DNA from: Roseibium aggregatum | GTDB lineage: Bacteria; Pseudomonadota; Alphaproteobacteria; Rhizobiales; Stappiaceae | NCBI RefSeq assembly: GCF_014692675.1 | Contig: NZ_JABFCZ010000011.1 | Span: 62,001-126,000 of the forward strand | Length of the DNA stretch: 64,000 nt | Direction of reading: 5' to 3' | Shown: one piece after another, positions 54,900 to 60,407 of the stretch | How the letters are laid out: each line of letters opens with the position of its first letter | How positions within the stretch are numbered: position 1 is the first letter of the stretch | Notes under the pieces: generated by a model | Told to the model about the DNA's origin: nothing | Database searches by the model: none | What the model saw: only the letters and a program-made list of their open reading frames with translations | Made by a program: the position numbers and the translations under genes

Positions 54900-56018
54900 T
54901 CATTTCGTGAGCGCTTTGCACAAGGTCTCAGCGACAAAGTCCACCTGATCGTCGCTCAGGGCCGGATGGATCGGCAGGCACAGCACCTTCTCCGCCATTG
55001 CCAATGCATTTTCGAGCGATCCCGAACAGCGGCAGTCCTGCAGAACCGGTTGCCGGTGAAGCGCCTGCGGATAATGGACTGCCGTCTGAATGCCGGCGGC
55101 TTCCAGCGATTTCGCGACGTTCTCGCGATCCTTGACCACGACCGCATATTGGGATCGTGCGCTGTGCCCGATCCCCTCATCCGTCACGAAATCCAGCAGA
55201 CCGGACCTGCGGGCATCGCCGAGCAGCCGGTCATAGGTCCGGCCGATGTGGCGGCGCTTTTCCAGCAGCGGTTCGAACATTTCCAGCCGGACAAGAAGAG
55301 CGGCGGCAGCCATGGAACCGAGCCGGCCGTTCAGGCCGGTGCGGACATGATGATATTTGCCGGATTGTCCGTGGTCGCGGATTTCGGCCAACCGCTTCGC
55401 CGTGTCCGCGTCATCGGTAAAAAGCGCGCCGCCGTCACCGGCGCCTCCCAGCGCCTTGGTGGGAAAGAAGCTGGTGCAGCCGATCCCGGCCAGCGTTCCG
55501 CTGGATTTGCCGTTCCGGGTTGCGCCCAGGCTCTGGGCGGCATCCTCGATCACCGGGACACCCTTACGTGCTGCTATTTCATTGATCCTGTCGAAGTCGG
55601 CTGGCAATCCGAAAAGCGAAACGGCGACGATGGCCCTGGTCCGGGGCGTGATTGCCGCTTCAAGAGCATCGGGGTCGATGAGCCCGGACGGCACCTGCAC
55701 GTCCACAAGGACGGGCGAGGCGCCCAGGATCAGGGCGCATTCCGCAGGTGCAATGAAGGTGAAGGCCGGAACGATGACCTCGTCGCCCGGCCCGATGCCG
55801 AGCGCCATCATCGCCATGAGGAGGGCGGTCGTTCCGGAGGCGCAGCTTATGGCGAAGTTCGACCCGACAGTCGCTGCAAGCCGCTGTTCGAGTTCGGCAA
55901 CCTCCGGACCGGCGACAAACCGGCCGTGGTCGAAGACGTCTGCGATGCGTCTGAGCGCCTCGGCGCGGACAGGTTCCCACTCGGCGGAAAGATCAACGAA
56001 GGGGACTTTCGGCGTCAC
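54900..56018 (-). CDS. DegT/DnrJ/EryC1-type sugar aminotransferase
   Basis: The 372-residue PLP enzyme has the family motif IEDAAQSLGA, the PLP-binding Lys in SFFPTKALGGAGDGGAL, and the substrate-site CASGTTALLMAMMALGIGPGDEVIVPAFTFIA. It transfers an amino group to a keto-sugar nucleotide, in the style of WbpE or PseC. Start is GTG at 56018, which overlaps the dehydrogenase stop (GTGA). This coupling fits the WbpB/WbpE partnership in making 2,3-diamino sugars. Confidence 0.9.
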   Translation of the reverse strand: MTPKVPFVDLSAEWEPVRAEALRRIADVFDHGRFVAGPEVAELEQRLAATVGSNFAISCASGTTALLMAMMALGIGPGDEVIVPAFTFIAPAECALILGASPVLVDVQVPSGLIDPDALEAAITPRTRAIVAVSLFGLPADFDRINEIAARKGVPVIEDAAQSLGATRNGKSSGTLAGIGCTSFFPTKALGGAGDGGALFTDDADTAKRLAEIRDHGQSGKYHHVRTGLNGRLGSMAAAALLVRLEMFEPLLEKRRHIGRTYDRLLGDARRSGLLDFVTDEGIGHSARSQYAVVVKDRENVAKSLEAAGIQTAVHYPQALHRQPVLQDCRCSGSLENALAMAEKVLCLPIHPALSDDQVDFVAETLCKALTK

Positions 56019-56932
56019 GCAAATCTCTCGGCGGGTTCAAGCACGGGATCGCCAAGCGCGCGGATGCGCTCGATCAGATGATAAACGGCCAGAGCGTCGG
56101 ATGCGGTTGCCAGTTCAGTCTCTCCGCCGTGGCAGGCGTCTACAAAGGCCTGGGCCTGCCGCGTCAGCGGGTCGAGGCGTTTTCCGCACATGAAGTCGAG
56201 AAGATCGTAGTCCTCCGCCACGCCGTCTGCCGCCGAAATTTGGACCGTCCTTTTCCGGCAATCTTCACCGTGACCGGCGCTCAGATCGTACCTGCGCGGT
56301 CCGAAGTCCAGACGGCACCGGACGTATTCAAGGCGGTCAACCGGTCCGCGGGTCTCCAGCAGATCGATCGCGCAATCGGTGGAGCCTTCGTGCCTGATGA
56401 TCCAGTCCAGATCGTGGATCATCAGGTCGGAAATCACATCCGCTTCGCCGGGCGCACCGGACCCTTGAGACAGGCGTTCGACGCGAATATCGCCCGCCTG
56501 CCTGCCAAGCCGGGCGGTGCAGTTTTCAATTTGCGGGTTGAAACGCTCCACCTGTCCGACGGCGAGAACCGCGCCGCCTGCGCGTGCCGCGGCGATCATT
56601 TTCCCGATCTCGCCGGAACTGAGCGCCAGGGGCTTTTCGACCAGGCAATTCACGCCCCTGGCGAGGAGCGGCAGGGCAACTTCGGCATGGTTGTCAGCCG
56701 GAACGGCGATGATCGCGGCATCGAATTCGCCGGCAAAATCGGCGGGGTCGGAGGAAAAGCGCAGGCCGTTCGCGGCGCCTGCCCTGCCTGCGTCGGTATC
56801 GACCACGCCGGCCAAATCGACTGACGTCAGTCCGGACAGGCACTTCAGATGCAACTGCCCCATCCGTCCGAGGCCGATCAAAAGAACCCGGACCGGAAGC
56901 CGCTGGAGGGGAGAGGAAACGATCGTGTTCAA
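56015..56932 (-). CDS. Gfo/Idh/MocA-family sugar dehydrogenase
   Basis: The 305-residue oxidoreductase has the NAD-binding motif VLLIGLGRMGQLHLKCL and the conserved catalytic Lys in CLVEKPLALS. IHDLDWIIRHEG resembles the conserved H-D-x2-W motif. It likely oxidises a UDP-sugar at C3 or a similar position to feed the aminotransferase. The start is TTG at 56932, overlapping the glycosyltransferase stop (TTGA), followed by NTIVSSP. The length is short for the family (usually 330 or more). Confidence 0.88.
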   Translation of the reverse strand: MNTIVSSPLQRLPVRVLLIGLGRMGQLHLKCLSGLTSVDLAGVVDTDAGRAGAANGLRFSSDPADFAGEFDAAIIAVPADNHAEVALPLLARGVNCLVEKPLALSSGEIGKMIAAARAGGAVLAVGQVERFNPQIENCTARLGRQAGDIRVERLSQGSGAPGEADVISDLMIHDLDWIIRHEGSTDCAIDLLETRGPVDRLEYVRCRLDFGPRRYDLSAGHGEDCRKRTVQISAADGVAEDYDLLDFMCGKRLDPLTRQAQAFVDACHGGETELATASDALAVYHLIERIRALGDPVLEPAERFA

Positions 56933-58170
56933 AGCTTCAGCCTGCCAAGAATGAATTTCAGTTTCGACGACTTGATTTGGTTCGATTTGCTCCGGGCCGC
57001 TGCCAGCTCCTTTTCGTGCTCGGCCCTTTCGTTCCGGAGCTTTTTTTCAAGCTCGGGAACCTTCTCCGCTTCCCTGGACACGCGGGCCAATTCCGCCTCG
57101 GCGTTTTTCCGGTCGCGGATGTTCTGGTCGGCCGCCTTGATGCGCGGCGACAGCGCGCCGGCAAGATACTCCGAGATCGCGGCAAACCGCGCTTCGTCCG
57201 TAATGGCCGGGCCCAGCTCCCGCCAGCGGTCGATGGCATTGCGGTACAAGCCGATCCAGGCGTCGGCAACAGCCTCCATGTCGGCGCTGGAGCGGATCGC
57301 CTGCGTGACCCTGCCTGCAGCGGCCGCATTATAGAGCTTCAGTTCGCGTTCCACATTGTCGCTGGTAAACGCCTGCTGCTGCAGGGTTCGAATGCCGAAA
57401 TTCAGGCCCTGGAAGGTTGCCAGGTTCTCCGGCGTGACCATCCCGGCGAGGCGTTCCTTGTCGGCGACCACGACAGCGCATCCGGACGCCATTGCCTCGA
57501 TTGCCGAGCGTGCCTTGGCGAATACGATGTCATAATCGGCAAGGATCATTTCCGGGTGCGCCACCGCATTGCCGGAAGCCTGACCGACGATATCAACCTT
57601 GTCGATCCCGAGCCGGTCGCAGGCTTGCCTTATGGCTTGCGGGATCTCGGGCCTTGTATTGCTGAAGACCAATGCGGAACCCGGTTTTTCCGGCAGTTCG
57701 CGCACCCGGTGAAACCGCTTGAGATCGACGAAATTGTAAAGCGTGGTGATTTGTTCCGGTTCGATGCCGTGGGTCGTCAGCAGGCGTTCCCGGCACAGGT
57801 CGTCGACGGCGACGTATCTCATGATGTTGGGAAAGGCCGGCGGCAGTTCCGGCCAGGGAACCCAGCCGTGACAGGTGTAGACGACCGGCACGTGCGGGAA
57901 ATGCGTCGCGGCGGTCATGGTTTCCAGGTGATGCTGGCCGTGGATGATGTCCGGGGCAATCGCCATCTCGTTCAGGTCGTCGATCACGGGGATCGTGGCG
58001 GCGCGCAGCTCGTTTGCCACCGCACCGAGCGTCCGGCTGTAGGCGACAGGAAAATGCCCGCGCTTCATGAAGGAGATCGCAAGGTCCCTCAGATAAAGCT
58101 CCGACCCGGCCCGAAGGCTCAGGGTGTTGTTGGTCATCAGGATGCGCAGCGGACGGGTCTCAGGCGTCAT
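56929..58170 (-). CDS. Family 4-type glycosyltransferase with C-terminal coiled coil
   Basis: The 413-residue protein has an N-terminal GT-B domain (ILMTNNTLSLRAGSELYLRDLAISF, and PDIIHGQHHLE) and a C-terminal domain with IVFAKARSAIEAMASGCAVVVADKERLAG, the typical donor-site E-x7-E region of GT4. The last 60 residues form a charged coiled coil (AEAELARVSREAEKVPELEKKLRNERAE). It transfers a sugar from a nucleotide donor in polysaccharide synthesis. Its ATG overlaps the BKACE gene by 11 bases. Confidence 0.88.
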   Translation of the reverse strand: MTPETRPLRILMTNNTLSLRAGSELYLRDLAISFMKRGHFPVAYSRTLGAVANELRAATIPVIDDLNEMAIAPDIIHGQHHLETMTAATHFPHVPVVYTCHGWVPWPELPPAFPNIMRYVAVDDLCRERLLTTHGIEPEQITTLYNFVDLKRFHRVRELPEKPGSALVFSNTRPEIPQAIRQACDRLGIDKVDIVGQASGNAVAHPEMILADYDIVFAKARSAIEAMASGCAVVVADKERLAGMVTPENLATFQGLNFGIRTLQQQAFTSDNVERELKLYNAAAAGRVTQAIRSSADMEAVADAWIGLYRNAIDRWRELGPAITDEARFAAISEYLAGALSPRIKAADQNIRDRKNAEAELARVSREAEKVPELEKKLRNERAEHEKELAAARSKSNQIKSSKLKFILGRLKL

Positions 58171-59002
58171 GGCGGCCGATCCCGAGTGCTTCGCGCACCT
58201 GGCCCGCACTGGCGAACGACTTGCCGAAGGTTGTGCCGAGTTGCCGGATTCTCCCCACCATCTGCGCGTTCGTTGCCGGTTGTTTGCGCTCGGCATCCAG
58301 CCAGAGAAAATCCTCCAGTCCGACCCGCACCCCGTTTCCGAACAGCAGCCCCAGGGCGTTCGCGGCAAGCTGTGCGGCGCCGATACCGCCGGCGCACCAG
58401 TAAGCGTTATCGGGCAGGTCTTGGGTGATGGCGGCCAGATGGAGCGGTGTCGCCTGCGCACTGGCGAGGTTGCCGAGCAGAATATTGAAATAGTGGGGCC
58501 CGGTCAGGATGCCCCGGTCGGCCAGGTAATTGGCGTAGTTGACCATCCCGGCATCGAACACCTCGAGCTCGGGGCGTATCCCGCGCTCGGCCATGGTTTC
58601 GGCAAGCCGTGTCACCATGTCCGGGGCGTTCACGCTTTCGTTCCGGGCGAAATTCATCGAGGCAAGGGTCAGGCTCGCCATGTCCGGCTTGAGGTCGCCT
58701 TCCAGAAACAGCGGATCGCTGCGGTGTTTAAATTCCGGAAAGTTCCGCCCGCTCAGTGACACGCAGATGATCACATCCGGATGGGTCTCCCGGATGCCGC
58801 CGATAATCCGGGCATAGACCTCCTTGCGCCAGGTCGGCTTTCCGCTCTCGTCACGGGCGTGCACATGCAGGATCGTCGCGCCGAGATCGGCGCAGCGCCG
58901 GCAATCGGCGATGATCTCCTGCGGCGAAATGGGAACATGGGGCGACATGTCCCTGGTCGGAACCATTCCCGTCGGCGCAAGATTGAGAATGAGGTCCTTC
59001 AT
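58160..59002 (-). CDS. BKACE (DUF849) beta-keto acid cleavage enzyme
   Basis: The 280-residue TIM-barrel enzyme has the metal site HVHARDESGKP near residue 47 and the catalytic Arg and Glu in GVRVGLEDFLW. CVSLSGRNF, LEVFDAGMVNYANYL and YWCAGGIGAAQL are further family motifs. BKACE enzymes condense acetyl-CoA with a beta-keto acid, giving acetoacetate and a new acyl-CoA (as in 3-keto-5-aminohexanoate cleavage). The substrate is unknown. A location inside a sugar-nucleotide operon is unusual. It begins 8 bases after the acyltransferase gene. Confidence 0.9.
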   Translation of the reverse strand: MKDLILNLAPTGMVPTRDMSPHVPISPQEIIADCRRCADLGATILHVHARDESGKPTWRKEVYARIIGGIRETHPDVIICVSLSGRNFPEFKHRSDPLFLEGDLKPDMASLTLASMNFARNESVNAPDMVTRLAETMAERGIRPELEVFDAGMVNYANYLADRGILTGPHYFNILLGNLASAQATPLHLAAITQDLPDNAYWCAGGIGAAQLAANALGLLFGNGVRVGLEDFLWLDAERKQPATNAQMVGRIRQLGTTFGKSFASAGQVREALGIGRHDA

Positions 59003-59010
59003 GGCGAACG

Positions 59011-59505
59011 CTATGCCGGGGCGTCGGGAGCAGGCTGCCTGATCCGGGCCGGATTGCCGACGACCAGCGCGCCGGGCGGGACGTCTTTCGTCACCACGCT
59101 GCCGGCGCCCACAACTGCGTTTGCCCCGATCCGCACGCCGGGAAGGATCGTGCTGCCGCCGCCGATTTTCGCACCCTTTTCGATATAGGGGTAAATCATC
59201 GGATCGCCCTTCAGCTTGTCGTTCAGGGTAACGACATGCGGCCCGATGAAGACGTCGTCCTCGACCGTGACGCCGCGGGTGATGTGGCAGGCGGTCTGGA
59301 TCGAGACGTTGTTGCCGATGGTGCAGGCGCAGATGTTGCAATGGGATCCGATCGTCGTTCCGGTTCCCACCCGGGCGTCCCGGTGAACGATCGTCATCGA
59401 CCCGACGCGCGAGCCTGCCCCGATGACGACATTGTCCTGAACCTCGGTCAGGCCGGCGTTGTAAAACAGGACGTCCGGAAACCGCTCTTCCAAGCTTTTC
59501 TGCAT
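59011..59505 (-). CDS. Left-handed beta-helix acyltransferase (WbpD/WbbJ-like)
   Basis: The 164-residue hexapeptide-repeat protein has many V-x-G-x-x-x turns ([38 protein letters not shown]) and the C-terminal coil [33 protein letters not shown]. Such enzymes are trimeric N- or O-acyltransferases that use acyl-CoA, for example WbpD on UDP-3-amino uronate. It is the first gene of the five-gene operon. ATG 59505; upstream Shine-Dalgarno is weak. Confidence 0.9.
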
Positions 59506-59717: not shown

Positions 59718-60407
59718 ATGTCTGATGTTCAGCGCCTCGGCGAGAAAATGGCTCAAGCCCAAGGCTTTCTCGGCGTTCCGACCCATCGGTTCGACGAGGG
59801 CGGCCGCCGGCAATTCATCGCCCTTCTCCGGGAAGGCCTGGCACCGGAAACGAGGCTTTGCGAAATCGGCTGCGGCTGTCTCCGGACCGCCTACTGGCTG
59901 ATCCGCTTCCTCGATAGCGGCGCCTATTGCGGCATCGAACCCCATCGCGACCGGGTCAAATGGGGGCTGGAAACCCTGTTCGACAAGGACATGCTCGACC
60001 ACAAGGCGCCGCGCTTCGACTACAATGCGGATTTCGACCTGTCCGTCTTCGGCCGGACCTTCGACATGTTTCTTGCCGGTTCCATCTGGACCCATTGCGC
60101 CAAGGGGCACATCGAAACCATGCTGGACGGCTTCATCAACAATTCCGAGGACCACGCCATATTCCTGGCCTCCTATCTCGCCCCGACCGACGCCGAGCCT
60201 GATTACAAAGGCGACGTCTGGGTCGGCACCAGCCACGAGTCCACGGAAGCTGGCATCGTGCGCCACAGCCCTGCCTGGATAGAGGCCCAATGTATCCGGC
60301 GCGGTCTCCGGGTCGACTTCCTGCCGGGCAAGGCCTTCGACGGCCAGACCTGGCTGCGGGTCCAGCGCAAGGCGGTGAAAAGGTTTCCGAACGGGTTGGC
60401 GGATTGA
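59718..60407 (+). CDS. Class I SAM-dependent methyltransferase-like protein
   Basis: The 229-residue protein has the motif I region TRLCEIGCGCLRTAYWLIRFLDSGAYCGIEP, with the GxGxG-like loop and the acidic residue after strand 2. FDMFLAGSIWTHCAKGHIETMLDGF resembles the post-I/II motifs. The substrate is unknown. It is transcribed divergently from the sugar operon and may methylate its product or an acceptor, but it may be unrelated. Confidence 0.8.
   Translation: MSDVQRLGEKMAQAQGFLGVPTHRFDEGGRRQFIALLREGLAPETRLCEIGCGCLRTAYWLIRFLDSGAYCGIEPHRDRVKWGLETLFDKDMLDHKAPRFDYNADFDLSVFGRTFDMFLAGSIWTHCAKGHIETMLDGFINNSEDHAIFLASYLAPTDAEPDYKGDVWVGTSHESTEAGIVRHSPAWIEAQCIRRGLRVDFLPGKAFDGQTWLRVQRKAVKRFPNGLAD

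Follow-up and report, generated by a model that had tools for sequence, protein, structure and literature searches.

An acyltransferase-linked clade of BKACE enzymes with a putative role in glycan N-acylation in Roseibium aggregatum and other bacteria

The WbpB/WbpE/WbpD and GnnA/GnnB pathways give rise to 3-amino sugars. In Flavobacterium psychrophilum, dedicated acyl-building genes of the O-antigen locus (wfpC-G) adjoin a PglD-type sugar N-acyltransferase; they use an acyl carrier protein (ACP), ketoacyl synthases and a ketoreductase, and the accessible text of the report mentions no beta-keto acid cleavage enzyme (BKACE) (PMC6519341). BKACEs themselves appear mainly in work on catabolism, as far as the accessible parts of that literature go, and a study that distinguished seven groups of them (Bastard 2014) is cited in PMC4922564. 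The one exception in these sources is BsfD of the flavophos cluster, a DUF849 enzyme in a biosynthetic role, which acts without retro-Claisen cleavage and leads to a phosphonate diketone; in its accessible part, the report does not mention an acyltransferase for flavophos (PMC12871164). Formation of glyceryl-CoA from a sugar-acid beta-keto acid by BKACE cleavage has been proposed in the accessible part of another source (PMC6365646). The accessible portions of the open-access literature on BKACEs with glycans or acyltransferases contained no report of a BKACE in glycan N-acylation. Here we characterize a BKACE gene located within a sugar operon (54900-59505) of Roseibium aggregatum, contig NZ_JABFCZ010000011.1; 'the window' is the whole stretch of 64,000 nucleotides that was analysed. 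The operon consists of the following genes.

59011-59505, minus strand: LbH (hexapeptide) acyltransferase, proposed to N-acylate the sugar; the operon begins with this gene (PF00132, 77 bits)
58160-59002, minus strand: BKACE belonging to the acyltransferase-linked clade, proposed to form acyl-CoA (PF05853, 272 bits over residues 4-275, cutoff 24.8)
56929-58170, minus strand: GT4-type glycosyltransferase, extended at the C terminus (PF13439, residues 66-152, 47 bits)
56015-56932, minus strand: Gfo/Idh/MocA dehydrogenase, UDP-GlcNAc 3-dehydrogenase-like, TTG start (PF01408, 68 bits)
54900-56018, minus strand: DegT aminotransferase, WbpE-like, GTG start (PF01041, 349 bits)

The gaps between successive genes, from LbH to DegT, are 8, -11, -4 and -4 bp. 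A preliminary description of this DNA had listed five tightly packed minus-strand genes in this order, and the coordinates, the gaps and the Pfam names of all five confirm it. We consider it more likely than not that the operon builds and transfers an amino sugar carrying an unusual N-acyl group, the BKACE supplying a putative non-acetyl acyl-CoA to the sugar N-acyltransferase. In the route that we propose, the Gfo/Idh protein would oxidize C3 of a UDP-GlcNAc-type sugar, and the WbpE-like DegT would aminate the product to a 3-amino sugar. The BKACE would convert a small polar beta-keto acid and acetyl-CoA into acetoacetate and an acyl-CoA two carbons shorter. LbH would then transfer the CoA-bound acyl group to the amine of the sugar, and GT4 would add the sugar to a glycan. 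Chances are about even that the scheme holds more broadly, with a widespread clade of cleavage enzymes turned into an anabolic source of acyl-CoA for glycan N-acylation, and an adjacent LbH or GNAT protein placing one and the same unusual acyl group on various amino sugars.

This BKACE clade usually has an acyltransferase for a partner, belonging to one or the other of two unrelated folds, and the sugar genes alongside vary. A same-strand LbH or GNAT open reading frame (ORF) was directly adjacent to the BKACE, under a strict distance cut, in 34 of the 45 clade loci outside the window (loci and genomes carry our own L and G numbers); L061, with a weak GNAT match of 20 bits, is counted among the 34, and L044 and L056 are not, since their over-long ORF starts miss the cut. 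Among non-redundant clade members, window included, the figure was 33/43, made up of 21 LbH and 12 GNAT partners. This count takes in L044 and L056 and leaves out L061; L068, L069 and L073 were removed because each shares at least 90% identity with another member, and L072 and L085, which are cut by contig ends, were retained as negatives. Also left out were duplicates of other loci (L005, L007-L010 and L076-L079); L006 had no match at the cutoff of the neighbour count. The loci with an adjacent partner span seven phyla: Pseudomonadota, Bacillota, Bacteroidota, Omnitrophota, Acidobacteriota, Armatimonadota and Campylobacterota.

None of 30 control loci of other BKACEs, which all came from the window's genus and extended 1.5 kb to either side, had an adjacent LbH or GNAT gene. 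As a background, the parts of the clade loci at distances above 2.5 kb from the BKACE, 499 kb in total, held 4 such genes. The LbH and GNAT profiles were derived from neighbour sequences, which makes this count partly circular; LbH was therefore also scored by its hexapeptide motif alone. By this measure it was adjacent in 19/45 loci, as against 5 occurrences in the 499 kb elsewhere and 0/30 in the controls. Seven of eight adjacent partners scanned against Pfam passed an LbH or GNAT cutoff (window, L039, L045, L056, L062, L070 and L083), L045, the stand-in for the flavobacterial GNATs, narrowly (23.0 versus 20.7 bits); the LbH match of the eighth, L042, fell below the Pfam cutoff. All further partners were assigned by similarity to seeds from the same loci. 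Chance adjacency was rejected on the basis of 33/43 members versus 0/30 controls and the motif-only repeat. The preliminary description had let its proposal depend on the BKACE being kept with such neighbours in relatives, and this is what was found.

A catabolic BKACE that merely hitch-hikes in a sugar operon is conceivable in a genome that carries five other BKACE genes. The contrast between clade members and controls makes it very unlikely, as does the distribution in the genus, where BKACE, Gfo and GT4 occur together in the same 4/45 genomes.

The partner can be of either fold at a single site. The flavobacterial loci L049 (4599-6148) and L070 (9998-11560) occupy the same genomic site, with BKACEs 81% identical, four flanking proteins 68-87% identical and a fifth 41% identical. 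The gene that follows the BKACE is of the GNAT fold at one locus and of the LbH fold at the other, without significant similarity between the two; L049 has one or two additional ORFs ahead of the next shared gene. Across the BKACE tree there were at least three switches between LbH and GNAT. We infer that a shared need for acyl-CoA is the best account of this exchange. A partnership with either fold is what an enzyme that supplies acyl-CoA predicts. The proposal in the preliminary description that the BKACE feeds the neighbouring acyltransferase thus gains support from the conserved partnership and the exchange at one site, and its biochemical content stays a prediction.

If the proposal is right, the tie between a BKACE clade and acyltransferases in seven phyla would constitute an added route to N-acyl diversity in bacterial glycans. 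It would give a functional label to proteins currently annotated as 3-keto-5-aminohexanoate cleavage protein, provide a gene marker for glycans bearing non-acetyl N-acyl groups, and amount to a portable module for CoA activation that requires no ATP.

The clade is distinct from other BKACEs. Its members are 42-92% identical to the window protein, and other full-length BKACE matches reach at most 36%, among the matches listed. In a genus sample of 45 genomes, the window's own included, clade BKACEs (at least 66% identity) were present only in G000, G043, G007 and G034. Relatives were found in 5 of 87 genomes of a family-level sample, and a phylum-wide draw had clade members in 4/398 genomes (own included, one being a fragment). 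A scan of species genomes, pattern-based and hence incomplete, gave 36 loci at 45-67% identity. Of 25 plasmid matches listed from 588 records, 3 were at 46-47% and the other 22 at 36% or less; a search of phages found no clade BKACE. In a tree of 55 rows, with 10 of the 30 control BKACEs and Kce as outgroup, the clade stood apart with support of 100/99. Long-branch warnings were raised for L004, Kce, L084, L081 and L067; L061 is labelled GNAT in this tree, and L072 and L085 were omitted from it and from the residue counts.

Compared with characterized BKACEs (Kce, 2y7d; the NF053568 and NF053538 families), the window protein has the same family membership, fold, zinc ligands and catalytic residues, but it scored under every curated isofunctional cutoff (Kce, 216 against 382 bits; 3-oxoadipate, NF053568, 176 against 350; 3,5-dioxohexanoate, NF053538, 145 against 430), belongs to its own clade, carries its own invariant residues and is of a kind found mostly beside acyltransferases. 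An AlphaFold2 model (pLDDT 90.8) predicts the TIM-barrel fold of the family, and a Foldseek search with it gave Kce 2y7e as the best match (E 1.1e-25, TM 0.88), with 3no5 also among the best. In Kce numbering, H46, H48, E230, R226, D231 and E143 are invariant in the 44 aligned clade rows, near-copies included; we take the first three to be the Zn ligands and the others to be catalytic. In window numbering, N7, S84, T112 and N173 are invariant in the same rows, M13 occurs in 41/44 and N178 in 42/44, and all six are lacking in 30 other BKACEs. Because the clade-specific N7, T112 and N173 fall in predicted barrel strands, the model suggests that the substrate differs from that of other BKACEs and is perhaps polar.

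Several observations weigh against a supply of acyl-CoA by the BKACE. Ten of the 43 members have no counted acyltransferase neighbour (L041, L050, L061, L065, L067, L072, L080, L081, L084 and L085), and a scan of the loci with the LbH and GNAT profiles detected no partner at all for L041 and L067. L050 has LbH and GT4 genes within about 2.1 kb of the BKACE, and the order at L084 is DegT, BKACE, GT-like, LbH; three others (L065, L080 and L081) lie in GTP-cyclohydrolase clusters. No recurring gene for making a beta-keto acid was seen among the neighbours scanned, which were not all of them, and the sole candidate set is at L055. The LbH protein may be specific for acetyl groups, its nearest named structural relatives including N-acetyltransferases. 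Finally, the tyrosine at Kce position 145 is replaced by phenylalanine in 44/44 clade rows, as in BsfD.

The nearest LbH structures raise the alternative that the acyltransferase takes ordinary acetyl-CoA, with the BKACE running backwards or merely balancing acetyl-CoA and acetoacetate; BKACE reactions are reversible in principle. Acetyl-CoA is abundant, however, so that a dedicated gene kept through an exchange of acyltransferases would bring no clear benefit, and the clade has invariant residues of its own. We regard this alternative as improbable.

The residue at position 145 bears on a further alternative, in which the clade would carry out chemistry like that of BsfD: acetyl would be transferred from acetyl-CoA to the beta-keto acid, decarboxylation would give a beta-diketone, and the diketone or a derivative, rather than an acyl-CoA, would be used on the sugar. 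According to the accessible text on BsfD, Tyr at this position is general for BKACEs and Phe may matter for the non-cleavage chemistry (PMC12871164). Moreover, some clade members cluster with genes for GTP cyclohydrolase II and for a protein resembling riboflavin synthase, and the same text gives lumazine synthase as the target of the BsfD product (PMC12871164). Against this, the BKACE of L011 also has Phe at position 145 and yet passes the curated model for 3-oxoadipate:acetyl-CoA BKACE (494 bits, cutoff 350). Phe145 therefore does not exclude cleavage and, insofar as the curated model is right, the substitution is compatible with it; a rule of Tyr in all BKACEs looks too strict, and L011 is the counterexample on which we rejected Phe145 as proof of non-BKACE chemistry. 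The BsfD-type insertion, a loop of about 20 residues after strand 3, is missing; compared with Kce, the clade has only some four additional alignment columns. By sequence, BsfD is fifth among the nearest solved relatives, after Kce, 3fa5, 3no5 and 3chv, and it was not among the 50 Foldseek matches listed, although it may not be in the set searched. A diketone would also need no acyltransferase. Chemistry of the BsfD type is thus unlikely for the clade, and the preferred reading remains that of an acyl-CoA-forming BKACE; the comparison bears on the meaning of the Tyr/Phe position in DUF849 enzymes.

The accompanying genes give some indication of the sugar. The closest Protein Data Bank match of the DegT protein is 3nyu, WbpE (E 1.1e-97). 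For the Gfo/Idh protein the best match is 7bvj (E 4.5e-20), with merely E 3.3e-5 to 3q2k, which we take to be WlbA; it scores 88 bits with the UDP-GlcNAc 3-dehydrogenase model NF040723, under the cutoff of 450. LbH is closest to 4mzu, WxcM-like (2.6e-28), and to 7s43, an N-acetyltransferase (2.4e-26). These affinities of the DegT, Gfo and LbH proteins make it likely that the sugar of the operon is a 3-amino sugar. With the WbpB/WbpE/WbpD and GnnA/GnnB pathways the operon shares a Gfo/Idh protein, a WbpE-like DegT and LbH; it differs in that its Gfo protein is not clearly WbpB-like, that it has an extra BKACE, and that none of the five operon genes, to which this search was confined, encodes a WbpA-type UDP-GlcNAc 6-dehydrogenase. 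The uronate logic of WbpB/WbpE/WbpD invoked earlier is therefore not supported in the form given: the aminotransferase fits it, but the Gfo protein is nearest to UDP-GlcNAc 3-dehydrogenase types.

Conservation of the Gfo/Idh-DegT-LbH set with the BKACE, as first described, was partial, which counts against this logic too. The window's tree group comprises eight rows (window, L037, L038, L040, L073, L074, L075 and L082; support 100/99), all of which have LbH, BKACE and GT4 together, with GT4 on the opposite strand in L075. Gfo and DegT accompany them in 6/8; L038 and L040 have LbH-BKACE-GT4 but, within 6 kb, no match to either of the two, and in L038 a sulfotransferase follows. Elsewhere in the clade, an FdtA-type cupin and DegT lie beside the BKACE in L051 and L060 (cupin scanned with Pfam in L051 only), a WecE/RffA-type aminotransferase lies on the opposite strand in L066 and L068 (NF008687, 576 bits for L066), and ATP-grasp proteins are found beside the BKACE in Winogradskyella (by Pfam for L052, by similarity for the others). 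In L045 and L069 there is a BKACE-GNAT pair and, of the seed families, which alone were looked for, no other within 6 kb.

This variety bears on the possibility that the BKACE has a substrate linked to a sugar, such as an N-acyl group or keto-sugar acid that it would remodel before or after transfer. The BKACE gene does overlap the sugar genes tightly, and among the relatives of known structure is a cis-epoxysuccinate hydrolase (5zmy), so other chemistries arise in the family. Acyltransferases nevertheless adjoin the clade's BKACE genes at loci whose sugar genes differ, and these loci, together with the bare pairs in L045 and L069, whose remaining genes were not scanned, make a common sugar substrate, and hence this possibility, quite improbable.

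An empty site for the operon was sought in the genus. The MFS and cytochrome c genes that flank it were matched in 40/45 and 41/45 genomes, respectively, and no empty site was shown. In the two genomes checked, G007 and G034, large distances separate these genes from one another and from the module; G043 has both operon flanks in common with the window.

Some clade loci have further genes of their own. In L055 (5527-10873; Trichococcus palustris), an AMP ligase, an ACP-like ORF, a ketoacyl synthase III, a second ACP-like ORF, two LbH genes and the BKACE stand in a row, a possible dedicated beta-keto acid pathway in which the ACP-like proteins were recognized by eye. In Winogradskyella and Gelidibacter (L052, 10874-17053; L053, L054, L057, L058 and L059), the BKACE is followed by one or two GNATs and one to three ATPgrasp_ST-like proteins. 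Loci of this type also hold, on the opposite strand, what is presumably a CapK-like protein, the L052 copy of which has no Pfam match.

The clade BKACEs of L065 (4738-10733; a metagenome-assembled genome), L080 (6486-12853; a Salmonella plasmid) and L081 (5751-10685; a Streptomyces plasmid with rosB), at 45-47% identity, lie with a gamma-glutamyltransferase, GTP cyclohydrolase II, a methyltransferase and a riboflavin-synthase-like gene, joined in L065 and L080 by a RibD-type deaminase. Perhaps these clusters make an undescribed product of the lumazine or pteridine type. A toxoflavin-type assignment, with ToxD as the BKACE, was dropped because ToxD is described as a serine/threonine kinase and no BKACE figures in the pseudoiodinine gene set in the accessible text of the respective reports (PMC5851621, PMC9911603).

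Upstream of the operon lies one divergent gene that was absent from the earlier gene list.

59718-60407, plus strand: divergent ORF, methyltransferase-like by eye, kept beside the operon in some relatives

It had no Pfam or NCBIfam match. The ORF is near LbH in L074, L082 and L040, a homologue is present in pieces in L073/G043, and it occurs in 3/45 genus genomes. A second GT4 copy, 57% identical, is present elsewhere in the same genome (G000 contig 52; L095, 531-2771), where it adjoins an ORF that has no Pfam match and is glycosyltransferase-like by eye.

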